Shown here: positions 421 through 64,000 of the stretch, in pieces
Numbering within the stretch: position 1 is the stretch's first letter
Layout of the letters: each line of letters starts with the position of its first letter
Virus record (IMG/VR): IMGVR_UViG_3300025115_000003
Span: 21,694 to 85,693 of that record
Strand: one strand, 5' to 3'
Source of the DNA: a virus
DNA: 64,000 bases
Notes under the pieces: model-generated
What the model was told of the DNA's origin: nothing
Databases searched by the model: none
What the model saw: only the letters and a program-made list of their open reading frames with translations
Made by a program: the position numbers and the translations under genes

Positions 421-494
421 AATCTCATAGTTTAAACTGGTTATAATATTAGCTTTTATAGTTAAAGTTTCAGGTTCGATTCCTGATGAGATTG
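421..494 (+). tRNA. tRNA with predicted anticodon UUA (ochre suppressor type)
   Basis: The cloverleaf was drawn by hand. Acceptor AATCTCA (421-427) pairs perfectly with TGAGATT (487-493), with discriminator G494 and no full CCA encoded. The D arm has T8, A14, A15, G18, G19 and A21 in the expected places but only a three-pair stem including one G-U. Anticodon stem TTAGC (449-453) pairs with GTTAA (461-465) with one G-U. The T arm is canonical (TCAGG, loop TTCGATT, CCTGA). The seven-base anticodon loop is TTTTATA, so U33 is followed by UUA at 456-458, which would read the stop codon UAA and by wobble UAG. Position 37 is U instead of the usual purine, which is odd. The short variable loop excludes a normal Leu or Ser tRNA. 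Confidence 0.75.
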
Positions 495-529
495 CAATCT
501 ATTAAATTATTAATTTAATACTTAAAGTT

Positions 530-14466: not shown

Positions 14467-15681
14467 ATGATTGATGATAATATAAAATATTATATTTTAA
14501 ATAACTACGATCAAGTAGAAATGTTTAGTTTTTATTTACAGATACCAATAGAAGATATACAAGAATCAATTAAACTTAAAAGAAATATACTAAATTTACA
14601 TAGAGGAGATACTGCTCCTTCTTTAAAATTTTATTACGATGGAGGTAAATTAAAAGTCTTTGATTATGGAAATGTATTTTACAGAGGAGATATATTCGAT
14701 ATTGTATCACTAGTAACAGGAGATAAAGGCTTTATTAATTCTTGTACTCATATATTACAAAAATTTAAACCAGGAATAAATAATCCTATATTAACATCAA
14801 GAAAAAATAAATATTTATATACATATACATTTAGAAATTATAGTTCTAAAGAAATTACATATTGGTATAATGCAGGTATAACATATGAACATTTAAAAAA
14901 TAGAGGAATATTATTAGCAAATGAAGTACATAGAGATGGAGTTAGAATACATTATTATAATCAAAACAATCCTGGATTTATTTATATATTAGGATTTCAA
15001 GAAGAAGAATTGTTTACTTTATATAAACCTTTTGAGAAAAAAGAATTTAAGTTTACTAAAAATTATAATTATCCAATCGAAGGAATAAATGAACTATATG
15101 AATCTGAAAACTTAATTATTACTAAGAGTAGAAAAGATAAGTTGACCATAGAAAGTTTAATTGATAACGGTAATATAGTTAAACAAGTAAGTAAATTAGT
15201 TAAAAGATTAGATTTACCCCCCTTTCAATATTATTCTTTTTATGTAGGGTTTTATGACAATACGTATCATATTAATTCAGATTATTGTATAACTAATTTA
15301 TCCAGTGAATCTATATTACTATCAAATAAATTAATAGATTTTCTAAAATCTAAACATAAAAGAATATTTATATTCTATGATTATGATTTAACAGGAATAA
15401 TCAATAGTTATTTTTATGCTAAATTACATTCATTTATTCCTATATTTATAGGAAGACCAAAAGATAAAATTATAGAAAAACTAACACCAGAAATAGTAAA
15501 ATTAATAACTAATAAATTTTTAGAATATGAAATAATATTTGAAATTAACGAGTTTATACAATTCGTAGATTTTCATTCAGGTAATGAAGAATCAAAAGAT
15601 ATGTTTGAATTAGCAAATTATAATATTAATAAAGCTAAAACTTTTTTAAATGGACTTGAAACATATAAGAAGAAAACATAA
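14467..15681 (+). CDS. DNA primase (TOPRIM, DnaG-like)
   Basis: This 404-residue enzyme should make RNA primers for lagging-strand synthesis. The N-terminal region HRGDTAPSLKFYYDGGKL ... DYGNVFYRGDIFDIVS matches the DnaG-type zinc-binding-domain fold but lacks its Cys/His ligands, as in many phages. The TOPRIM DxD (FIFYDYDLTG, about residue 305) supplies metal binding. The ATG at 14,467 is preferred; an upstream TTG lies inside the terminator tract. It begins a new operon and overlaps the next gene by 32 bases. Confidence 0.75.
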   Translation: MIDDNIKYYILNNYDQVEMFSFYLQIPIEDIQESIKLKRNILNLHRGDTAPSLKFYYDGGKLKVFDYGNVFYRGDIFDIVSLVTGDKGFINSCTHILQKFKPGINNPILTSRKNKYLYTYTFRNYSSKEITYWYNAGITYEHLKNRGILLANEVHRDGVRIHYYNQNNPGFIYILGFQEEELFTLYKPFEKKEFKFTKNYNYPIEGINELYESENLIITKSRKDKLTIESLIDNGNIVKQVSKLVKRLDLPPFQYYSFYVGFYDNTYHINSDYCITNLSSESILLSNKLIDFLKSKHKRIFIFYDYDLTGIINSYFYAKLHSFIPIFIGRPKDKIIEKLTPEIVKLITNKFLEYEIIFEINEFIQFVDFHSGNEESKDMFELANYNINKAKTFLNGLETYKKKT

Positions 15682-16072
15682 GTTCTTAGGTATAAAAGAA
15701 GAGGAATTTCTATTCGGAGTACCTGTAACAGAACAACAATGTAATGAATTTTTAGATGAAATGACAAACTTATCAGATAATGATTTCTTTAATAAATATT
15801 TATTCTACAAGGAAAAAGTATTAATGTTAGGAAATGTAAATGATAAATCAAGAAAGTTAATGGAACTTGTAATAGATTCTATAGATTTACCAAATGGTAA
15901 GAAGTCTTTTACTTGTTTTACTGGAGATTGGAAAAGATGTATTGATAAATCTCCAACTATTATACATGAGGACATAAGTTCTTCATGGAATTGTTTAGTT
16001 GAATATTTAGGTCATCCTGAATATGCTATAATATTAAAATTTAAACCAGATGAACATGAATTTCTTATATAA
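15650..16072 (+). CDS. hypothetical protein
   Basis: The 140-residue product overlaps the end of the primase gene by 32 bases and the start of the ligase gene by 23. It contains a Lys/Arg-rich N-terminus (IRRKHKFLG), and a WKRCIDKSPTIIHE stretch. No domain was recognised; tight coupling on both sides argues for a replication-associated role. Confidence 0.6.
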   Translation: MDLKHIRRKHKFLGIKEEEFLFGVPVTEQQCNEFLDEMTNLSDNDFFNKYLFYKEKVLMLGNVNDKSRKLMELVIDSIDLPNGKKSFTCFTGDWKRCIDKSPTIIHEDISSSWNCLVEYLGHPEYAIILKFKPDEHEFLI

Positions 16073-17279
16073 ATTGGATATTAATAAAAATGTACTGGAA
16101 TGGGGAATTGATTATGATTATGATTCTGGTATAAATTATATATTAATACAACAAGGTAGAATTAATGGTAAAAAAGTACATAGTTCTACACCTTGTGCAA
16201 TGACTTCTCCAGATATAGAAATTGCATCTAAAATAAGAGATAAAAGGAAATCTGGATGGAAGACTTTAGATGAATTAGGGGTAGTAGCTTCAAATAATAT
16301 GGAAGAACAATTATTAAAGCTTCTACCATATGAGCATAAAGATTTGAATAATAGACATAAGCCTCAAAAAGCTGTATTATTTCAAGAAGGTAAGTTTAAA
16401 TATCCTGCTCTTATTCAACCAAAACTTAATGGAATTAGAGCTACTTTGAGTTGGACTAAAATAATTACTGGAAAAGGATTATTTGCCGAAACTATAGAAA
16501 AAGCAGTATTAACTTCAAAAGAAGGTATTGTTTATCATATGCCTCATATTACAGATATTTTAACAGAAGATTTCTTTAAAGCCTTTGTAAATAACGAGTG
16601 GATAGATATAACTTACGATGGTGAGTTATATAAACATGGAATGAAACTTAATGAGATAAGAAAGAGAGTACCTTATTATAATGCTCATGGGACTTTAAGT
16701 AAGGCCTCTGGTAATCCTCAAGAAATATCTTTTTGGTGTTTTGATTTAGCTATTCCTAATATAATACAACAAGATAGAACTATTATACATGGAAATTTAT
16801 TAACTGATTATCCTTCAGTTATTGAACCCGCTTATTCATTAAGTCCTATAGTAGCTTTAGATGCCATTCTTGTATATGATGATAAACACAGCAGAGAAGT
16901 AGCAGATGAATTTATTAAAATGGGATATGAAGGAGGAATATTAAGAGATTTAGATAGCTACTATGGTTTTGGAACTAAAGATAAAAGAATGATGAAACTA
17001 AAGAAATGGTACTTTACTAAATGTACTATTGTTGATGTAGTTTATAAAAATTCTTCTATTGTAAATGATAAAGAACGTACCTATATAGCTATAGTATTAA
17101 AAAACGATATAAATAATGAAATCTTTGAATGTACTCCAGAAGGAGATGAAGAAGATAGATTGTTATTACTAACCAATAGAGATAATTATATAGGTAAATT
17201 AGCTAAAGTTAAATTTAGAGAAAGAAGTGGTATTGCAGAAGTACCCTTTCAAGCAATTGTAACAGAAATTGAAAACTAA
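16050..17279 (+). CDS. ATP-dependent DNA ligase
   Basis: This 409-residue nick-sealing enzyme has an N-terminal WGR-like domain of about 60 residues (VLEWGIDYDYDSGINYILIQ...G), then the adenylation domain: motif I IQPKLNGIRA with the lysine nucleophile at 125, motif III FWCFDLA, motif IV EGGILRD (about 294-300) and motif V MMKLKKW (about 315-321), followed by a short OB-fold. Motif I reads K-L-N-G where DNA ligases normally have K-x-D-G. DNA ligases are common in crAss-like replication modules. A second ATG lies at 16,056. Confidence 0.82.
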   Translation: MNMNFLYKLDINKNVLEWGIDYDYDSGINYILIQQGRINGKKVHSSTPCAMTSPDIEIASKIRDKRKSGWKTLDELGVVASNNMEEQLLKLLPYEHKDLNNRHKPQKAVLFQEGKFKYPALIQPKLNGIRATLSWTKIITGKGLFAETIEKAVLTSKEGIVYHMPHITDILTEDFFKAFVNNEWIDITYDGELYKHGMKLNEIRKRVPYYNAHGTLSKASGNPQEISFWCFDLAIPNIIQQDRTIIHGNLLTDYPSVIEPAYSLSPIVALDAILVYDDKHSREVADEFIKMGYEGGILRDLDSYYGFGTKDKRMMKLKKWYFTKCTIVDVVYKNSSIVNDKERTYIAIVLKNDINNEIFECTPEGDEEDRLLLLTNRDNYIGKLAKVKFRERSGIAEVPFQAIVTEIEN

Positions 17280-38300: not shown

Positions 38301-41300
38301 CACTAATTTTGTAATTATCTGGGTCTTTTGCAATACGCTCCATTACTTTATCATATTGCGACTTAGTAATTACATCATAAGATAATAATATTTTAAAATA
38401 TTCAGTGTCTTCTAACCATTCAAATCCATCAGTAGATGTAATATTTTTATATCCTCTTTTTTTAAGTTCTTCAATAGTAGAATTATAATCAGGATCATTA
38501 ACTACAATCCTATTATATTGACCACTTAAATTACCTACTGCATAAGGAGTTAATGCACTTTTTAATCTCTTTTGCATAGCTTCAGCAGTAGCACTATAAT
38601 CAATAATTTCTCCTTGAGCTTTAGTAAAATGAGCAGGATCATTAACTGTAAGTAAATGTTGATCTATATTAAAGAAATAATTATTTAAAGCAAAATCTGC
38701 AATGGCATATTTATACAATCTATTACCAAAATAAGATGTAGCTTTAGTAACTTTTGCTAAATATCTATTGTCCATATACTTAGACCGCAAATAACCATTT
38801 TGTACAGTTATTGTACCAGAGTTAATAAAATCTAATTCGGTAGAAGTTACTAGTTGAGTTAAATGTCTCCTTAATAATTTTTTAATTACATTAATTGTAT
38901 CTCTATTAATATTTAATACATCATTAGTATAAAGAATATCATACTCTTGTTGTGAAATAAATGAAGTACCAATACGAGGTTTAAGGTTTTGATAATCTAA
39001 CCAACCATGTAAAATAAATCTTTCTGCTCCTTTATTGTAAGTTTGAGATTTAGTAGATTGTATTTTAGACCTAAATCTTATTATCCTTTTATACTCTCCT
39101 TTTACATAGTTAAAAGCATAATCTATCAATTCAGGACTTAATTCTAACTCACCTGATTCATTAATCTTTATTCCAGTAACAAGGTTATTAATAGCTTTAG
39201 GTCTGGTTATTTCAAATACAGGGGTTTGTGAACTATCGCCATATGTAATACCTATCATATAAGCATTTCTATAGCCTTGATTTTGAAATAGATTTAAAGC
39301 CATAGTATTCTGAGAAGTATTAACTGCTCCACCACGTTCTAATACAGTTGCATCAATACCTGCCATTTTAGACAAAGTGAGTGCATCAAAGTAATGTAAA
39401 TTAAAGGTCAAATTTTGCCCCCTGTCGCTTTGTAGGGAACGTAAGAAAGGACTAAATTTTGAAATAGATGTTTGGAGTAGTTGATTTAATAAAGTGCTGT
39501 CAGATTGCTTAATTTGGGCTATAATAGAGGACAAACGGTTATACTTTCGTACAGTCCATATATTATCATTATTACTATTCCTTGTACTTAAAGAATATAC
39601 TACAGAATTATTTCTATAGAATTGTTTGCTTAATGGTACAATATATTGATCATATAAAGTACCTGAGAAATTAAATTTATTATCAATAAATGGCTCATTG
39701 ATAACAGTAGCATCTTCTAAAGTTCTAAGTAATTCTCCAAGAAAACTTGCTATAGTATTATTTTTGTAATAGGGATATAATATATTAGCATTCCAAACAC
39801 TATTACTTGATTTATTTTGAATCTGTGCTTTTTTAGAATCAATAAAAGTTTTAAAACTATCTAAATCTATATTAAGTCCAAGTTTAGACAAAGAACCTAA
39901 TATTTTATTTAAGTATTCATCTGAAGTAAAAGCTGTTTTAGGTCGTTTAGCCTTATCTTGTAAATCATACAACTCCTTTTGCTCTTTATAGTAAGTTCTA
40001 AATTCAGTAGCTACTTCTTCTACTAAGGCAGAATTAATAGAAGGAATATCAATTCCATCTACAGTAGTATAATTAATTAAGTTAGAACTTTTGATTCCTT
40101 CAACCCATTGAGCAATTACTCCTTTGTATCCATTAGTAGCTGATAATTCAGAATTAACATATCTATAACCTACAAGTTCTTCATCGTAATATACTGGATA
40201 TCTTAAAGTTTTAATTGAATCATTTCTTGACTGAATAATATTATTTACAAATAAAGTTTTAAATGATGTAGCTGAATCAGTAGATTTAAGAGATTTTAAT
40301 TTATTTATAACATTTAAATATACAGGTTTAACTTTTGCTCTATCTTCTAATATAGCTATGGCTTCATCTAAATTAGTAGCTTGACCTGCTATATCTATAA
40401 GTAAATGATCATATAAATAATCTATATCAGCAGGAACTTTAAATCCTAAACTATTTCTTTTACTTACTACTTTACCATCTTCATTAAAATCTAATTGATT
40501 AACTGTAGATAACATTAATCTAAATTTACCACTATGTAAACGAGGATCAATAGTTGCTTCTAAGTGAGGAGAATATTTAATTCTTTCATACATATTATCT
40601 TCTTCACCAGCAATTAAATCTTCTTCATTTACCATACCTCTATCTTTAGCTAAATCATAAAGATATTTAACTACTCTATCGTAGTTAGGTAATATTCTAT
40701 TAAATGCATCTATTGAAGAATCTAATCTTTCTTGAGTATTAATACCCAATAAGGCTAAATAAGGCTCTTGTTTTTCAGTTAGATTATTAATATCTGCTTC
40801 TTTAATAATATCAAATACTTCTTCTAATAAAGTTCTTATTGATTCAATAGATTTAGATAAATTGTTATTATCTACGTTTGCATCTTTATTTAATATATTA
40901 TCTATAACTCTACCGAATAAATAATTAACTACATCTTCTTGTTCAGATAAACTATTAAATACATCAGTAAGATAATTTTGCTGAATAATTCCAAATTCAG
41001 TTGAGTCATAATTAACTTCTCCTGGAGTAAATGCTATAGAATAACTTGAATCATCTTCATCAAATAAAGGTTTATGAGTATCTTCTACCTCTTTTGTATC
41101 TATAACTTCAACTACGGTATCAGAAACTTCATATTCTCCAAAATAATCTTCAAGGACACCTGGTGTTTCTAATCCATCTATTCTAAATTGAGTTTCAAAT
41201 TGAGCCAAAGGAATACGAGAAGATTCATATTTAAGTGTACCATTAATAGTAGTAGTCAATACATCTTTAATAAAATCATTGTATCTTGGATAACTATAGG

Positions 41301-54931: not shown

Positions 54932-57492
54932 TAGGGAGTTATTATTTGTTTAGTTACCCAACTACTTGATTCTCTTCTTTGAACTATTAGATTATTTCCG
55001 TTTCTACCTTGCCTATATGTTCCATCTATATTAGGCAATCCCCAATATATCCAACCATCATCAGATAATACTTTATTATATTCACCTCCTGCAAGATAGT
55101 GCATATACGTAGGAATTAAAGGAGAAGCTGCACCAAAAGTTAAACTTACATCGTATAGATGAAATTCAGCAGCACCATTTGTATATAACTGAAGCCTTGT
55201 TTGTTGACCAGCTTCTAAATATACAGTTACTCCATCCCAAGTCAATTCGCTATCACTCTCCATGCGAACTACTCCATATTGACCTTCTATCCAAGATGAA
55301 CCATTATAAATATCTATTCTTGAACCAACCTCTGCTCCACCTGTAGTATTTCTACCGATTACAGCTAAAGAATAATATCCATCAAAAGGAACTTCTATTG
55401 ATTCAAAAAATAGATAATTAAGCCCAGAAGCAGCAGAAAATACTGCTATATGACCATGTAATCCTCCTGAACCTAAAGCTAAACTATATCCAAAATTTAA
55501 AGATGTATCTATTTCATCCCTAAGATTACCATTTTTCATAAAATTTAAACTACTTATAAATCCATGAGAACCAGCTTTAGGATGGGAAGTAGTTATCATT
55601 GGTGTACTCGATGCTAAACTCAAAGGCATATATGTAATAAAACTATCATCTGCTTGAATATTCATAAATACACCAAGATTGTATATTCTAATATTCTTTA
55701 ATGTAGAATCAAAACCTATGCCTTTATCTATATAAGTACCACCTTCAAAAATAAAACTAACATCTTTTACATTAGCATCTGATATTATAATAGGTAAAGT
55801 TGCATCTGGAAAGAAATCACAACCTACAAATGTAACCGATTGTGCTACACCTGTACCATATACTAAAATAGGAGTTATTTCAGGTACTATATTATATCCA
55901 AATTTACAACCTATAAATATATTTTGGTTAAATTCACTTAATCTTCTAAGATTAGGATCATCATTCCAAGTACCTAATTTAAGAATCCATTGACCTATTG
56001 TACAATTAGACCATTTATTATTATATTGGGTATCAAATGTACCAAGTGGTTCTAAATCAGGAGTAGTTAATCCAGTAGTTAAAGTTTTAAAGAAACAATC
56101 ATTGAAACTGGATTCCATTAATCCTACTATAAGAAAATCACCCTCTGTTTGGATTTGCTTAAAATGTAATCTTTTACAAGCATTAACTTCAATTAAAATA
56201 GGAGTAGAGTTAGTAGTAATAAATCTTGCACCATTACCATCTACAATTAAAGAACTTGCTGTAAAGGTAGTATCTGATGGATTTCCAGATAATACATTTT
56301 TATTACTTATTGTAACTTTACTATTTAAAACATAATTAACTCCCCTTAGAGTTAATACTCCTCTGGTTATATAAGCAAAGAAACTATTAAAAGCAGATGA
56401 ATCATCTGTTACTCCATCACCTCTTGCTCCAAAAAATTCAGGAAATATTCTTTTATCTACTCTTTTGTACCTATCTCCAGATGCAGATACTATAGTCATT
56501 ATTCCATCATCAGCAGTAGAAGTATCTCCTGGATCAAATTCAAAATCTCCTTCTAATCCATTGTTTGAAATAAATATAGCAGGATTTTGCAAAGATATAT
56601 CTGTATTAGCTATTGCTCTAACTTCCGAAATAGTCTTAGATATAACTACTTTATTAGTAGCTTTAGCATAATAATAAGGATCGAGTTCTTCAATTAAATC
56701 ACTAAATAATTGTTTATATAATTTACCATTTACTTCTCTTACAATTCCTCCTATATCTACTTTATGATCAAAACCTAATAGATTAAGTACTCGTAGATCA
56801 CCAAGTATAATAATACCTGTATCATCTGTTACAGGATTAGTTTCAGTAAAAATTTCATATATGTTAAATAGATGATCTATATCATATATGTCTGCACCTA
56901 ATTCTATAGTATAATCATAAGCTAAACTAAATCCATCCGAAGATACTAATGCTGGAGCAACAGTTATACTATCTTCATCTTTCCAAGAAGTAACTCTTTT
57001 GGCAATACCTTGTCCTAATAATTTATCTAATTCATTTCTCCATTTAGGTATATTGGAATCAATAGTTAATATTTGATTCTCATCTCCTTTCGGAAGTCTT
57101 GTTAAATTTCCGCTTGCATTTCTATAGTATATATCTCCAACTGCATCACTACCTAACTCAATACCGCCTGCTATGTGTAAATCTTTTATTTTCTTTGCTA
57201 TTGTACCTAAATCATAAGCATTGTTTGAAGCAGGTTCTAAAGCACTCTCTCTAAGAGTTAATCTTAATACATTATTGACTTCATATTCTGCATAACCATT
57301 AACGCCTGCAAATACTTCAAGTTTGGTATTACCACTTATTATATAAGAACGATCTCCAATTACTTTTGCTAATTCATACAAGTTAATTCTAATGGATTTA
57401 TCAGAACCAATTCTACCAATAGCAACAAAATCATTCTGATCTTGAATATCAGAATGAGTTAAGGTAATTTCAGCATCTATAATTTTTGTCAT
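54931..57492 (-). CDS. tailspike/tail fibre with pectate-lyase-type beta-helix
   Basis: The 853-residue receptor-binding candidate has an N-terminal particle-binding part (1-150) with AYDLGTIAKKIKDLHIAG, a fibre-type repeat; a middle beta-rich domain; then FFGARGDGVTDDSSAFNSF (about 351-369), the signature that opens pectate-lyase/tailspike beta-helices; about 300 residues of beta-helix; and a C-terminal jelly-roll-like domain (GRNTTGGAEVGSRIDIYNGS). Such proteins bind or cut host capsule polysaccharide. The catalytic residues were not identified. It overlaps its neighbours by 4 bases and 1 base. Confidence 0.82.
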   Translation of the reverse strand: MTKIIDAEITLTHSDIQDQNDFVAIGRIGSDKSIRINLYELAKVIGDRSYIISGNTKLEVFAGVNGYAEYEVNNVLRLTLRESALEPASNNAYDLGTIAKKIKDLHIAGGIELGSDAVGDIYYRNASGNLTRLPKGDENQILTIDSNIPKWRNELDKLLGQGIAKRVTSWKDEDSITVAPALVSSDGFSLAYDYTIELGADIYDIDHLFNIYEIFTETNPVTDDTGIIILGDLRVLNLLGFDHKVDIGGIVREVNGKLYKQLFSDLIEELDPYYYAKATNKVVISKTISEVRAIANTDISLQNPAIFISNNGLEGDFEFDPGDTSTADDGIMTIVSASGDRYKRVDKRIFPEFFGARGDGVTDDSSAFNSFFAYITRGVLTLRGVNYVLNSKVTISNKNVLSGNPSDTTFTASSLIVDGNGARFITTNSTPILIEVNACKRLHFKQIQTEGDFLIVGLMESSFNDCFFKTLTTGLTTPDLEPLGTFDTQYNNKWSNCTIGQWILKLGTWNDDPNLRRLSEFNQNIFIGCKFGYNIVPEITPILVYGTGVAQSVTFVGCDFFPDATLPIIISDANVKDVSFIFEGGTYIDKGIGFDSTLKNIRIYNLGVFMNIQADDSFITYMPLSLASSTPMITTSHPKAGSHGFISSLNFMKNGNLRDEIDTSLNFGYSLALGSGGLHGHIAVFSAASGLNYLFFESIEVPFDGYYSLAVIGRNTTGGAEVGSRIDIYNGSSWIEGQYGVVRMESDSELTWDGVTVYLEAGQQTRLQLYTNGAAEFHLYDVSLTFGAASPLIPTYMHYLAGGEYNKVLSDDGWIYWGLPNIDGTYRQGRNGNNLIVQRRESSSWVTKQIITP

Positions 57493-58181
57493 TCTGTATA
57501 ATAAGGATTAAATTCTACAGTTTTATGATAATTATAATCTACAATAAAAGTTCTTAGTATTTTACTTATTTCACTTCTTGTATCCGAATCTATATTTATT
57601 ACAGAATTTCTTGCTATTTTTTTGTATTTTTCCCAAGCTAAAGCTGGATTAGTAAATTCATTATTATCCTTTAAAGAGAAATTAGGAACTAAGTGTCCTC
57701 TTTCTAATAACCTTTTAAGTATATACCAATCTAAAGCAGTTAATACATCTTCATTATCAGGTATTAAAGGAAAATATAATTTTAAATTAGCATCTAATTC
57801 AATAGGTAAAACTTTAATATAAATTCTAACATCTCCTGTTTCAAATGTAGTAATAATATAACCATTAGATAATTCATATTTTGCATAAGGATGGTATATT
57901 TCAGCATTAATAGCAGGAATAGCAGTATTTATACCTTCAATTCTATCTAATCTCCAACCTTCATATTCAACTGCCATTAACTCTTTAGTTTGAGGTGGAA
58001 TAATACATTTATAATCTACTACTGAATCCTCAACTACAGCATCTTGTAGAGCTACAAATAAATCTAATTCCCCCATTCCTTGATGAATCCAATTAGGAAC
58101 TCTTGATATAAAACCAGAGTAATCAATATTAAATCTATCAAATACTCTGGCTATACAAACTTTAGAAGATATAGTCAACAT
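57489..58181 (-). CDS. tail ring/adaptor protein (P22 gp4-like candidate)
   Basis: The 230-residue product carries a helical C-terminus with ALDWYILKRLLERGH, NPALAWEKYKKIARNSVI and DSDTRSEISKILRTF, the pattern of crAss-like tail ring proteins that connect portal and tail (P22 gp4-type adaptors). The N-terminus has beta strands (VVDYKCIIPPQTKELMAVEY). It is overlapped by the tailspike start. Naming is by resemblance and gene order; it might equally be the tail hub. Confidence 0.65.
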   Translation of the reverse strand: MLTISSKVCIARVFDRFNIDYSGFISRVPNWIHQGMGELDLFVALQDAVVEDSVVDYKCIIPPQTKELMAVEYEGWRLDRIEGINTAIPAINAEIYHPYAKYELSNGYIITTFETGDVRIYIKVLPIELDANLKLYFPLIPDNEDVLTALDWYILKRLLERGHLVPNFSLKDNNEFTNPALAWEKYKKIARNSVINIDSDTRSEISKILRTFIVDYNYHKTVEFNPYYTE

Positions 58182-60011: not shown

Positions 60012-60731
60012 TTAATTATTGTCTAAATGAGGACTTATAATTTTATCTTTATCGTCAGTTAATGATAATTCAGTAGCTAATAACTTTTCTTTAACTAATT
60101 GAATTATATCGTCTGGCATAGGAAAATCTACTGTATCTAAATAAGTAATACCTGCTTGTTTAGCATCCAATGATTCATCTTGAATAAAATCATAAGACGA
60201 ATGAACTCCTTCTACCATTATATCAATAGAAGTTAGAGGTTCATCTTCATCTATTTCATTAGGTACATAATATACATAAATATAACCATTTAGATAATCA
60301 TATGTAGGAGGAGTAACTAATGATTCCTCTTCATCTACTTGGTATGCTTTTTGTACTGCCGGTAAAAGTTTATAATACTCTAAAGCAGCAGTATTTATAA
60401 AAGTAAATGGTATTTGACCATTAATAGACCCTACATAAGTAAAAGGATCATCAGTTATATATCGAACTGGTTTAGCTACTTTATTTATAGTTCTAAAACA
60501 GTTACCTACTATTTCATCATTTAAACTTGAATCAGCTATATTAACTCTCTTACAAGTAATAGAATATCTTGTCTTAAATTGAGAGTCTATCCCATGCTTA
60601 TTTATTTGTTGTCTTATATATACAGCTAATTCTTGTTTATATATTGCTTTAACTCTCTCTTTTAACATATCGTCAAAAGGTCTATTGAGAGATAAGGCAA
60701 TTTGATCTGCTATTTGTTTTAATGTAGCCAT
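60012..60731 (-). CDS. tail ring/adaptor structural protein
   Basis: The 239-residue product has an N-terminal helix pair (IADQIALSLNRPFDDMLKERVK), a middle with strands (RYITDDPFTYVGSINGQIPF), a YIYVYYVPNEIDEDEP segment and an acidic C-terminus (PMPDDIIQLVKEKLLATEL). Gene order and pattern match one of the ring proteins of crAss-like tails. Called with moderate confidence. Confidence 0.62.
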   Translation of the reverse strand: MATLKQIADQIALSLNRPFDDMLKERVKAIYKQELAVYIRQQINKHGIDSQFKTRYSITCKRVNIADSSLNDEIVGNCFRTINKVAKPVRYITDDPFTYVGSINGQIPFTFINTAALEYYKLLPAVQKAYQVDEEESLVTPPTYDYLNGYIYVYYVPNEIDEDEPLTSIDIMVEGVHSSYDFIQDESLDAKQAGITYLDTVDFPMPDDIIQLVKEKLLATELSLTDDKDKIISPHLDNN

Positions 60732-60734
60732 ATA

Positions 60735-61064
60735 TTAATTGTTTACATCGTATATATTACTGAGTCTATCTTCTACATTATTGGGTTTAGCTACTGTTTT
60801 AAAATTATGATCTATCTGCTTTAAAACTTTATTAAAATTATCTTTTTTAACAACTTGCTCGTAATTATTTTTTAATTCAGTACATTTAGTATTTAAACTA
60901 TTTATATCTTCTTTCACTTTAGTTGAAAATACAATAATCCAAAAAACAGAACTTATAATAATAGGCAATAAAGTAGAAATGGCAGTATTAATAGTAAATT
61001 TATTATCCTGCTTTTGCATAGATAATACCAATTTTTCTAAATTTTCATATTGTTCTTTTGTCAT
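60735..61064 (-). CDS. single-pass membrane coiled-coil protein (holin/spanin-like candidate)
   Basis: The 109-residue product has a short charged N-terminus, one transmembrane helix (about residues 25-46, AISTLLPIIISSVFWIIVF) and a charged coiled coil to the end (VKEDINSLNTKCTELKNNYE). It overlaps the PAS gene by 20 bases, so the two are co-translated. Size and topology would suit a holin, a spanin component or a membrane sensor partner. No lysis enzyme was found nearby. Confidence 0.6.
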   Translation of the reverse strand: MTKEQYENLEKLVLSMQKQDNKFTINTAISTLLPIIISSVFWIIVFSTKVKEDINSLNTKCTELKNNYEQVVKKDNFNKVLKQIDHNFKTVAKPNNVEDRLSNIYDVNN

Positions 61065-61500
61065 TTCTCATTTCATTTATTATTTCTTCTATTCTATATA
61101 ACTGATCTGTAATATCAGTAGCTTTCTCAAATTTCAATGTTTTTCCATTTATTTCTTTAAGTACATATATTATATAAAATACTTTATTTAGCTTATTATT
61201 ATAATGTACCCAAGTATAAGGTTTGTTTAAAGTTAAATCCTTATTTACACAAAAATCACATTTATCAAATATTCCTTGTAAGGCTATGTAACATTTCTGT
61301 CCAATTACACTTCCGACTTGTTTTTCCAAAACATCATTTATGTATAAGATTTCATCATTGGATATATCTACAACATAAACAAAGTTTCTGTTATTATTTA
61401 AACTTATTTTAAGTATTTCATTTTCATCTGATATATTAGAAGTAGATATATAAATATCTTTAATTAATTCTCTTAAGTCAAGATATAATCGTTTGCTCAT
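61045..61500 (-). CDS. PAS-domain sensor protein
   Basis: The 151-residue product has an N-terminal helix (1-35), then one PAS domain (about 36-133): FVYVVDISNDEILYIND, GQKCYIALQG, a Cys pair in FDKCDFCVNKDL, PYTWVHYNNKLNKVF and the end signature FEKATDIT followed by a helix. These match the PAS type common in gut-bacterial diguanylate cyclases and kinases. There is no output domain; the C-terminal helix could dimerise or touch the membrane protein encoded next (20-base overlap). Ligand unknown; the Cys pair might bind metal. PAS proteins are not an expected part of a phage tail operon. Confidence 0.82.
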   Translation of the reverse strand: MSKRLYLDLRELIKDIYISTSNISDENEILKISLNNNRNFVYVVDISNDEILYINDVLEKQVGSVIGQKCYIALQGIFDKCDFCVNKDLTLNKPYTWVHYNNKLNKVFYIIYVLKEINGKTLKFEKATDITDQLYRIEEIINEMRNDKRTI

Positions 61501-61508
61501 ATTGTATT

Positions 61509-61619
61509 CTATGGGTTTATCACTATTATTTCATCTTTTAGTACAAAAGCATAAGGCTGTGCAACTCCGTTAATTTCATTTATAGCCCAACCCTGCCCAT
61601 GAACAGGGTTATCAGACAC
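61509..61619 (-). CDS. 36-residue protein with GTG start
   Basis: GTG at 61,619-61,617 is 4 bases after the upstream stop and opens 36 codons ending in TAG, 8 bases before the PAS start. The peptide (SDNPVHGQGWAINEINGVAQ, then PYAFVLKDEIIVI) looks like a small beta unit. It exactly fills an otherwise empty 123-base gap in a packed operon. Confidence 0.5.
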   Translation of the reverse strand: MSDNPVHGQGWAINEINGVAQPYAFVLKDEIIVINP

Positions 61620-61623
61620 TTTA

Positions 61624-61809
61624 TCAAGCTTCTTGTTCAAACTCAACCAAATCATGTTCAATCATGTAAGACCTAAGTGTTTCAATGCTATCAAAGCCTA
61701 TTAGTTCACACGGTGTACCGTGTTCACTTTCGTAGATCACATTTTGAAGTATCTCAACTTCATTACCTTGCACTACTTTCAGTGCGAATGGATATATTTC
61801 TCTTATCAT
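61624..61809 (-). CDS. small acidic hypothetical protein
   Basis: The 61-residue product reads VVQGNEVEILQNVIYESEHG then a helix SIETLRSYMIEHDLVEFEQ. It starts in an ATGA overlap with the LRR gene, so its translation depends on that gene; it could be a chaperone or a small tail component for it. No family was recognised. Base composition is closer to that of the LRR gene than to the rest. Confidence 0.6.
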   Translation of the reverse strand: MIREIYPFALKVVQGNEVEILQNVIYESEHGTPCELIGFDSIETLRSYMIEHDLVEFEQEA

Positions 61810-63947
61810 ATGTTTGTCGTGTTAAGGGTGAATGTTGTAACACCCTTTGTTGATTTGATACTGTTAATTAGGTACTTAGCTTGTTCAGCATCAGTTCCGA
61901 ATTCGTCTGCTGTTGCTGCTGCTATTGCTGTAACATTAGCTGCTATCTGTTCTCTGATTATTACCGTTGCTGGCAGCGATGTACCTGTGTTGTTTAGTAC
62001 GCTGTTTAATAAGGGTATCAAGTCAACGTAGTCCATAGTGTTACTTCCAGCGCGGTAATCTAATAATTGTAAAGTCGTCATGTTTGGCTTTGGGCTTCCT
62101 GTATTTCCTAATATATTACCTGTCCAGTTGATGCTATTGCTTTCTAACCACAAGACAGTCAATCCCGTTGGCAATGCCCCTGTATATGTCCAGTTGATAT
62201 TACCATACAAAAGCAAGTAAGTTAATCCAGTAGGCATCGCACCAGTATATGTCCAGTTGATATTGCTACCTTCCAAATACAATAAAGTCAATCCCGTTGG
62301 CAATGCACCAGTGTGAGTCCAGTTGATGTTACTACCTACCAAACGCAAGAAGGTCAACCCCGTTGGCAATGCCCCTGTATATGTCCAGTGAATGTTACTA
62401 CCTTCCAAACGCAAGAAGGTCAATCCCGTTGGCAATGCTTTATTACCAGTTGTCGGTAGTGCTGTTGCTAACGCCGTTACTTGTCTGATTTTCTGCGTCA
62501 AAGCAGGCAAGTTGTTCAGATTCCAGCTAACAATAGGCATAGTTGCATCCGTGCCAGTGTAAAAAACAATAGTAGGATAGTTTATGCCATTATGATTTCC
62601 AAAACTCCTAATCCTATCAGCCCTCTTTATCACAAGTGTTCCTGATTGGTTATTGGGGCAGGATATTACAACAGTATGTTGTCTAAGCTGTACACCATCA
62701 AACAAAGCATCATTAATCACTGTTGTGCTTACAATCACAGCGCTTCCAGTAGCTTCAACTGTTAAATCAGCCGTAGCTGAAAATGTAATTGTACCCTCTG
62801 TGGGTGTTCCACTTGTTCTTCCTGATACAGGTAACACTAAATCCCATATAGGAATATTAGTAGTATTAAGTTGGAAAGTTGTTACTCCTTTACCTCCATC
62901 TATCACAGGTAATTGTATTCTATTAATTAAAAATCTACATTGTTCAGCTTGTGAACCAAATTCATCTGGGATTGCATTAAGAATGGCTGTTACATTCCCT
63001 ACTATCTGTTCTCTGATTGTTACTGTTGTTGGCAAAGTACCAACATTGTTAATCAGACTATTAAGTATTGAAATAAGGTCAGCGTAGTCCATTGTGTCGG
63101 AAGGAGTGCGGTAGTTAAACAGTGATATATTACTCATATTAGCCTTAGGTGTGCCTGTATTTCCTAAAATGTTACCTGTCCAGTTGATATTGCCGCCTGA
63201 CAAATACAAGTAAGTCAATTCTGTAGGTATCGCACCAGTGTAAGTCCAATTGATGTTGTGGCCTGACAAAATCAAGAAAGTCAATCCCGTAGGCAATGCT
63301 CCAGTGTAAGTCCAATTGATGTTATTACCCCACAAAAGCAAGAAAGTCAATCCCGTAGGCAATGCCCCTGTATATGTCCAGTTGATGTTGCTGCTTTCCA
63401 TGTACAAGTAAGTCAATCCTGTAGGTATCGCACCAGTGTATGTCCAATTTATGTTATTACCTGACAAACGTAAATAAGTCAATCCAGTAGGCATCGCTCT
63501 ATTACCAGTTGTCGGTAGTGCTGTTGCTAACTCCACTGTTTGTCTGATTTTCTGCGTCAAAACAGGTAAGTCATTCCAATTCCAACTAACAATCGGCATA
63601 GTTGCATCCGTGCCAGCGTAAAAGTTAACCGACGGGGTACTCGCTCCATTATGATTACCAAACGCTCTTATTCGATCTGAACGCCTGATAATTAACGTGC
63701 CTGATTGGTTGTTTGGGCAACTGATTACAACGGTATGCACCCGAAGCTGAACGCCGTCAAATAAAGCATCATTAGCCCTTGTTGTGCTTACAATTACAAC
63801 ACTTCCAGTCTTTTCAACGGTTAAATCTGCTGTTGATGTAAATGTAATTGTGCCATTTGTCGGAGTGCCTGATGTGCGACCTGATACGGGTAACACTAAA
63901 TCAGCACGACCAATTGTAAATTTGCTATTGCTTATATATCTGTTCAT
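61806..63947 (-). CDS. tandemly duplicated leucine-rich-repeat protein, probable virion surface protein
   Basis: The 713-residue protein consists of two copies of a module of about 350 residues, starting DLVLPVSGRTSGTPT and ending KGVTTF(T/Q)LNTTNI. Each module has a beta-rich head (TVVISCPNNQSGTL, DRIR(A/S)FGNHNG), five 22-residue LRRs of consensus TGLTxLxLxGxNINWTYTGA-(L/I/M)P, and a helical cap (DYVDLIPLLNSVLNNTGT). Framework residues are almost invariant, while the residues around the xLxLxG strand vary (RLE, RLV, YLE, LLY, WLE, LLW, ILS). No signal peptide. It overlaps the next gene by 4 bases and the upstream one likewise. The region is less AT-rich than the rest. Location in the late operon suggests a receptor-binding or decoration role; that is inferred. 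Confidence 0.75.
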   Translation of the reverse strand: MNRYISNSKFTIGRADLVLPVSGRTSGTPTNGTITFTSTADLTVEKTGSVVIVSTTRANDALFDGVQLRVHTVVISCPNNQSGTLIIRRSDRIRAFGNHNGASTPSVNFYAGTDATMPIVSWNWNDLPVLTQKIRQTVELATALPTTGNRAMPTGLTYLRLSGNNINWTYTGAIPTGLTYLYMESSNINWTYTGALPTGLTFLLLWGNNINWTYTGALPTGLTFLILSGHNINWTYTGAIPTELTYLYLSGGNINWTGNILGNTGTPKANMSNISLFNYRTPSDTMDYADLISILNSLINNVGTLPTTVTIREQIVGNVTAILNAIPDEFGSQAEQCRFLINRIQLPVIDGGKGVTTFQLNTTNIPIWDLVLPVSGRTSGTPTEGTITFSATADLTVEATGSAVIVSTTVINDALFDGVQLRQHTVVISCPNNQSGTLVIKRADRIRSFGNHNGINYPTIVFYTGTDATMPIVSWNLNNLPALTQKIRQVTALATALPTTGNKALPTGLTFLRLEGSNIHWTYTGALPTGLTFLRLVGSNINWTHTGALPTGLTLLYLEGSNINWTYTGAMPTGLTYLLLYGNINWTYTGALPTGLTVLWLESNSINWTGNILGNTGSPKPNMTTLQLLDYRAGSNTMDYVDLIPLLNSVLNNTGTSLPATVIIREQIAANVTAIAAATADEFGTDAEQAKYLINSIKSTKGVTTFTLNTTNI
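62108..62435 (-). repeat. LRR array of module 2 (five repeats of 66 bp, one of 63)
   Basis: Five tandem units encoding the TGLTxLxLxGxNINWTYTGA pattern. The fourth unit lacks one codon (YLLLYGNINW). Units differ at many silent positions, so the protein framework is more conserved than the DNA. Confidence 0.8.
63160..63495 (-). repeat. LRR array of module 1 (five repeats of 66 bp)
   Basis: Five tandem units equivalent to the array at 62,108. Variable strand residues read LRLSGN, LYMESS, LLLWGN, LILSGH and LYLSGG. The last unit diverges into NINWTGNILGNTG in both arrays. Confidence 0.8.
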
Positions 63948-64000
63948 TGTATGCTGAAATTAGTAAATGGAAACTCATTGCCATTTTCCGCCTGAAATGT
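63944..64000 (-). CDS. C-terminal end of an upstream late gene
   Basis: The minus-strand frame is open from the right edge and ends in TGA that overlaps the LRR start codon (ATGA). The last 18 residues (QAENGNEFPFTNFSIQ end) are visible. The coupling shows the LRR gene is an internal gene of a longer late operon. Confidence 0.65.
   Translation of the reverse strand, partial: TFQAENGNEFPFTNFSIQ

Follow-up and report, generated by a model that had tools for sequence, protein, structure and literature searches.

A stand-alone PAS protein of the bacterial Cys-triad type, encoded beside a membrane-protein gene in the late block of a crAss-like phage

The late virion block of a crAss-like phage encodes a stand-alone protein of 151 amino acids that is, with near certainty, a PAS domain carrying N- and C-terminal helices. 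The gene was found in a window of 64,000 nucleotides (the whole stretch of DNA analyzed), which covers positions 21694-85693 of a linear source record of 85,693 bp. On sequence grounds the phage is a member of the Crassvirales, as its major capsid protein matches Crass_capsid (L006 6750-8243; E-value 1.4e-38) and tail ring proteins 1 and 2 are both present. The features of the locus are as follows.

61045-61500, minus strand: stand-alone PAS protein, 151 aa, with an ATG start and a TGA stop
61114-61386, minus strand: PAS core, about residues 39-129, placed by AlphaFold2 secondary structure and PDB fold matches
61249-61293, minus strand: Cys triad C70, C81 and C84 (C-x10-C-x2-C), invariant in 59 bacterial/archaeal relatives
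60735-61064, minus strand: 109-aa protein with one transmembrane (TM) segment and a charged coil-like tail, candidate partner of the PAS protein
60012-60731, minus strand: tail ring protein 2 (CrAss_Ring_2; Pfam E-value 5.3e-12), the synteny anchor, from 31 crAss-type records
57489-58181, minus strand: tail ring protein 1 (CrAss_Ring_1; Pfam E-value 1e-12)
61509-61809, minus strand: two small ORFs of 50 and 61 aa, no family, separating the PAS gene from the FNIP-repeat gene
61806-63947, minus strand: 713-aa FNIP/leucine-rich-repeat protein, in the same late block just upstream of the PAS gene

The four motifs from which a PAS domain was originally predicted (GQKCYIALQG, DKCDFCVN, YTWVHYNNKL, and ATDIT) all occur in the 151-aa ORF, and structure prediction bears out the fold. 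An AlphaFold2 model based on an alignment of 60 relatives has a mean pLDDT of 82.9 and a pTM of 0.72, with 10-residue blocks across residues 41-150 at 86-96; a single-sequence run gave a pLDDT of 33, and the alignment-based model alone was used. It predicts helices at residues 3-17 and 26-36, a PAS core at ~39-129, and a C-terminal helix at 131-148. PAS domains, namely LOV proteins, FixL, and DosP, head the list of Foldseek matches to PDB (best E-value 7.5e-07, probability 1.00), and the 60-row profile matched the LOV-PAS protein YtvA in PDB (E-value 1.5e-4). Neither a non-PAS fold nor a known tail protein family, the two outcomes that would have counted against a PAS domain, emerged: Pfam and PHROGs gave no tail-family match to the protein. 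Its description as free-standing and lacking an output domain also holds, as the ORF ends after the C-terminal helix and the next gene, encoding a TM protein, is in another frame. No TM segment is predicted in the PAS protein, which has no room for a DNA-binding domain, no Pfam match to one, and no helix-turn-helix of the VqmA type.

Pfam, PHROGs, and NCBIfam do not call PAS directly for the phage protein. This can be ascribed to divergence of the class itself, since the first four relatives likewise fall below the curated PAS profile cut-offs; PAS_9 is matched by 36 of 60 aligned class members (E-value ≤0.01). The relatives are bacterial or archaeal: tblastn against phage records identified N-terminal PAS regions of bacterial GGDEF/EAL proteins (four records, E-values 4e-3 to 4e-7), and a scan of one genome per species with an alignment built from these sequences collected 134 bacterial/archaeal relatives with a best E-value of 1e-18, such values being relative to the candidate stretches. 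In most of the 134 the domain heads a GGDEF/EAL or histidine-kinase protein. The best 80 of the 134 belong to Bacillota, Desulfovibrionaceae, Planctomycetota, Bacteroidales, and Methanolobus, among others. In 30 full-length relatives the accompanying domains include GGDEF (16), GAF (15), EAL (10), and HATPase_c (10). Conserved columns and relatives support the predicted membership in a PAS class that bears cysteines and belongs to GGDEF/EAL and kinase proteins, recognizable in bacteria as an N-terminal GxKCYExLQGxxxPCxFCTN domain (Eisenbergiella, Holdemania, Hungatella, and others). The phage copy shares the fold, the invariant residues, the Cys triad, and the Bacillota/Desulfovibrio loop lengths with the PAS of bacterial PAS-GAF-GGDEF/EAL proteins and histidine kinases, at 25%–39% identity, but differs in being phage-encoded, in lacking an output domain, and in its very long branch.

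LOV domains provide the closest fold matches in PDB (Bacillus subtilis YtvA, 2pr5; short LOV proteins PpSB1/PpSB2), and the arrangement of N-cap, core, and C-terminal helix is common to both; short LOV proteins, like the phage PAS, are also without an output domain. The profile alignment with YtvA places C70 at the position of the photoreactive LOV cysteine. The LOV motif NCRFLQG, however, is not kept, the phage having GQKCYIALQG (N to K, R to Y) and an additional C81/C84 pair, so that the alignment to YtvA preserves the position of the Cys and not the motif of a LOV photoreceptor.

The phage protein keeps 14 of the 15 columns that are ≥95% conserved in bacterial/archaeal relatives (the exception is R123, replaced by K), five of the nine columns at 80%–95% conservation, and six of the 36 most variable columns. 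All three triad cysteines are retained, as are G67, K69, Y71, Q75, W97, and E125. A retained core combined with lost variable columns is, judging by the alignment, what would be expected of a protein under constraint at the end of a long branch. In a tree the phage PAS groups with Holdemania (92/86) at a branch length of 3.79, and given such a branch the placement is not proof of the donor. Loop lengths favor a Bacillota-type source: Cys84-to-Trp97 is 13 and Trp97-to-Glu125 is 28, values shared by almost every Bacillota row and by Desulfovibrionaceae and Oxalobacter. The loops of Planctomycetota, Desulfobacterales, archaeal, and Bacteroidota copies are longer, apart from a single Bacteroidota copy whose first loop is shorter. 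None of ten sampled Bacteroidota copies is of the 13/28 subtype, and the class as a whole is present in 8 of 297 Bacteroidota species genomes (E-value ≤1e-12). The domain had been called gut-bacterial in type. The loop-length subtype of Bacillota, Desulfovibrionaceae, and Oxalobacter agrees with this, but the class extends to sediment bacteria and archaea, and its occurrence in Methanolobus, Planctomycetota, and Desulfobacterales led us to reject a gut-only origin.

The suggested capture from a bacterial signaling gene is supported, the protein being nested in a bacterial family with no other phage copy found. The base composition of the gene (GC 0.226, GC3 0.145) is phage-like, the window having a GC of 0.281 and most of its genes a GC3 of 0.09-0.16, and this together with the very long branch indicates that the capture is old. 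The sequence evidence therefore supports an old acquisition from a Cys-triad bacterial signaling protein, with a core that appears to be still under constraint.

Pattern scans of IMG/VR contigs for the Cys-triad PAS class found no relative, and tblastn in phage records yielded no true phage copy, only four unannotated "Bacteriophage sp." records (MT838049.1, MT835688.1, MT837964.1, and MT836567.1; L001-L004). We rejected these as phage carriers of the domain. Their PAS begins long GGDEF/EAL enzymes, and the neighboring genes are of housekeeping type (RNase R-, SmpB-, and dihydroorotate dehydrogenase-like, named by eye), so that these short records, which resemble fragments of bacterial chromosomes, are best regarded as bacterial contamination. 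The class was not found among 29 crAss records, related or classical, of which many are fragments, and PAS_9 matched none of 13 crAss-type records, with control genomes positive in 12 of 14. Further copies at the same locus of other crAss-like genomes, where the original prediction would have looked for them, did not materialize: the gene is missing in all five of the sampled relatives that reach the locus. One 17.8-kb contig (L095, IMGVR_UViG_3300010293_000062) encodes a capsid protein with 100% identity to the one in the window phage; the PAS search was negative there, but the contig seems not to extend to the PAS locus.

Several other features of the window deserve mention. The FNIP/leucine-rich-repeat gene (61806-63947, minus strand) has a GC of 0.407 in a 28% GC genome and is made up of two similar halves; its product is possibly an adhesin of recent acquisition. 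At 421-495 (plus strand), ARAGORN detects a tRNA whose anticodon, TTA, would read the ochre stop TAA. Among the stops of the main ORFs, TAA is nonetheless the commonest (28 of 41), and it also ends Ring 2 where relatives end. At 24745-47832 (minus strand), ORFs of 628, 4546, and 2518 aa lie in one frame with only TAA separating them (TAA CAT ATG; TAA ATG), and it is conceivable that read-through by this tRNA joins the three into a giant fusion.

The gene that follows PAS lies directly before Ring 2, its start overlapping the PAS gene by 20 nt, and encodes the 109-aa protein, in which a single TM segment (best window residues 23-41) precedes a charged coil-like tail. In relatives gathered via capsid and Ring 2, the gene directly upstream of Ring 2 also encodes a TM+coil protein in G018 (131 aa), L132 (139 aa), and L133 (129 aa). 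The 109-aa protein and these proteins are alike by position and layout; homology between them is unsupported, the score being below that of shuffled sequences. The same slot in G011 is filled by small ORFs, among them a 122-aa ORF and TM-type proteins of 88 and 108 aa. In G004 it contains a 73-aa TM protein, a 151-aa TM+coil protein, a DUF5675 protein (E-value 1.4e-14), and a 170-aa protein with a lipobox and a C-terminal TM segment, which is spanin-like, having the predicted layout of a unimolecular spanin. In L098 (IMGVR_UViG_3300026518_000009), genes for small TM, TM+coil, DUF5675, and unimolecular-spanin-like proteins at 15135-16706 stand directly before Ring 2 and form a candidate compact lysis cassette of a crAss-like relative. 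A conserved TM holin-like protein of 104-119 aa is located in or near the region in crAss002, cr107_1, jaberico, ctcc615, and Carjivirus. Because holin-like, spanin-like, DUF5675, and TM+coil genes are found there, the slot is of lysis type in relatives. A review of the Crassvirales lists spanins and lysins among the late genes (PMC10136315).

In relatives, the other end of the slot is bounded by a homologue of a 395-aa gene of the window phage (L006 3353-4540; E-values 7e-55 to 5e-36). In the window phage, this gene is followed by a 79-aa, 2-TM holin-like ORF (L006 3114-3353), a 99-aa ORF, a Fib_succ_major-domain protein, and a 529-aa ORF; after these come an assembly gap between record position 1 and window position 64000, the FNIP-repeat protein, and then the PAS gene. 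The separate 2-TM holin-like ORF is kilobases away from the PAS gene, across the gap, and the DUF5675 gene of this phage is located elsewhere (L006 14583-15053). A possible sensor fold in the slot appears in cr127_1, where gp41 (L088 6386-6982, 198 aa) lies directly before Ring 2, has an N-terminal TM segment, and adjoins a 2-TM protein. Its soluble part scores 32.6 against GAF, compared with at most 20.6 in 60 shuffles, at an hhalign probability of only 38%. Homologues of gp41 occur in Microcystis phages (PHROG 30125).

Foldseek comparison of the PAS model with predicted viral structures returned two proteins of Cellulophaga phages, R9ZZL0 (E-value 1.3e-4) and S0A2B2 (E-value 7.8e-4), and a few other short phage PAS proteins. 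Identification of the best BFVD match, A0A345MNJ9 (182 aa), as ctbg_1 AXH74483 was withdrawn, since AXH74483 looks all-helical and is without the PAS motif. R9ZZL0 and S0A2B2 were assigned by length, as the only annotated CDS of those lengths found, to phi19:1 gp108 (240 aa) and phi18:3 gp090 (172 aa), which share 26% identity. The TM-anchored PAS-fold proteins of this group, annotated as hypothetical, are located at the following positions.

NC_021794 (L148), 39102-39620
L153, 3911-4546
L154, 3935-4537
L152, 5703-6425
L155, 4094-4723

These small proteins (phi18:3 gp090, phiSM gp11, Ingeline gp36, phi19:1 gp108, and Nekkels_1) come from several families of Bacteroidota-infecting phages and have a PAS fold according to Foldseek. 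They reside in lysis cassettes, where the accompanying genes are holin-like, spanin-like, and endolysin or DUF5675-like. For instance, phi18:3 gp090 is found between 2-TM and 5-TM proteins, followed by endolysin and spanin-like genes, and the phiSM homologue adjoins an L-alanoyl-D-glutamate peptidase and two overlapping spanin-like genes; the Ingeline and Nekkels homologues have similar lysis-gene surroundings. They share the TM and coil layout of the window locus, here within one protein, and have neither sequence similarity to the window class nor the Cys triad. Profile comparison of the Cellulophaga family with the window PAS class found no sequence relationship, and the link hence rests on fold matches. 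Recognized by fold match and by length, the Cellulophaga proteins are at most an analogue of the window PAS protein.

The original prediction held that the protein could time lysis or adjust virion assembly. As our preferred explanation we suggest, tentatively, that a cytosolic PAS sensor may act on the adjacent 109-aa membrane protein and thereby affect the timing of lysis. The PAS protein would be a soluble sensor with a helix at each end; as it has no output domain, it would most likely act by binding a partner. The most economical candidate for that partner is the product of the overlapping gene, a coil-like membrane protein with a single span. A ligand in the PAS pocket, or its thiol/redox state, would alter the grip on the 109-aa protein, and the altered grip would modulate membrane permeabilization and with it the time of lysis. 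Supporting such a role are the PAS identity with its retained core, the 20-nt overlap, and the lysis-type slot in relatives, and, as analogies, the Cellulophaga cassettes, cr127_1 gp41, and the precedent of T4 RIII. RIII is a cytoplasmic lysis regulator that acts on the cytoplasmic region of the holin (PMC12162936), and the T4 antiholins RIII and RI are described as small proteins that tune a single-span holin (PMC12162936; PMC8385771); the likeness to the phage PAS is one of role only. Counting against a part in lysis are the below-shuffle score of the 109-aa protein against the TM+coil proteins of relatives, the location of the DUF5675 and 2-TM holin-like genes elsewhere, the absence of sequence relationship to the Cellulophaga family, and the five relatives without a PAS gene at the locus.

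Several other roles have to be weighed against this one. PAS domains commonly dimerize, and a free copy could pair with, or take ligand from, the PAS kinases and c-di-GMP enzymes of the host and so blunt their signaling late in infection. A near-complete sensor module cut from its output is what a dominant-negative would look like, and the class does occur in GGDEF, EAL, and histidine-kinase proteins. We nonetheless think this unlikely, given the rarity of the class in Bacteroidota, the absence of the 13/28 subtype from the copies sampled there, and the position of the gene among the late genes rather than in the plus-strand (presumed early) block. That the protein is packaged in the virion or is an accessory of tail assembly, its fold serving as a scaffold, would fit a gene inside the tail block between the FNIP-repeat protein and Ring 2. 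We regard this as quite unlikely: no structural family in Pfam or PHROGs matches, conservation of the pocket and cysteines is not what a scaffold requires, and the gene is absent from the same position in relatives, so that the protein is not needed for the tail.

Control of late transcription or translation in place of lysis, for example through the phage RNA polymerase, has a parallel in PAS receptors of other phages that act on transcription. VqmA-Phage of vibriophage VP882 is likewise a phage-encoded PAS receptor of bacterial origin tied to the lytic decision, but it carries a DNA-binding domain and acts in the lysogen through transcription (PMC8284805). With no DNA-binding domain fused or adjacent, a late position, and a membrane protein as neighbor, such control is improbable for the protein described here. 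Occurrence in one genome only, with no close relatives for a test of selection, is what might be expected of a captured passenger without selected function. This seems very unlikely in view of the intact ORF, the phage-like base composition, and the near-complete set of strongly conserved columns kept despite the very long branch.

Beyond the proposed action of the PAS sensor on its membrane neighbor, a broader idea is more speculative and, in our estimate, rather unlikely: sensor folds (PAS/GAF) may be a recurring, unrecognized arm of the lysis cassettes of Bacteroidota phages, one that reads the metabolite, redox, or membrane state of the host and sets the time of lysis. It draws on fold-level and positional evidence from the TM-coil-PAS proteins of Cellulophaga phages, the TM-GAF-like protein of cr127_1, and the window PAS, which is split from its TM-coil neighbor. 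Since cultured Cellulophaga phages carry PAS-fold proteins in their lysis cassettes, the idea can be put to the test in laboratory systems. If it is true, lytic phages would have an environmental lysis clock. Known PAS receptors of phages belong to transcription factors or kinases, and Foldseek lists a few other short phage PAS proteins; the free Cys-triad PAS domain in a late membrane-gene slot is a variation on these. Phages of the crAss-like group are abundant and coexist persistently with their hosts. For the timing of their lysis, a sensor module that the phage carries next to a membrane gene offers a concrete, testable candidate.
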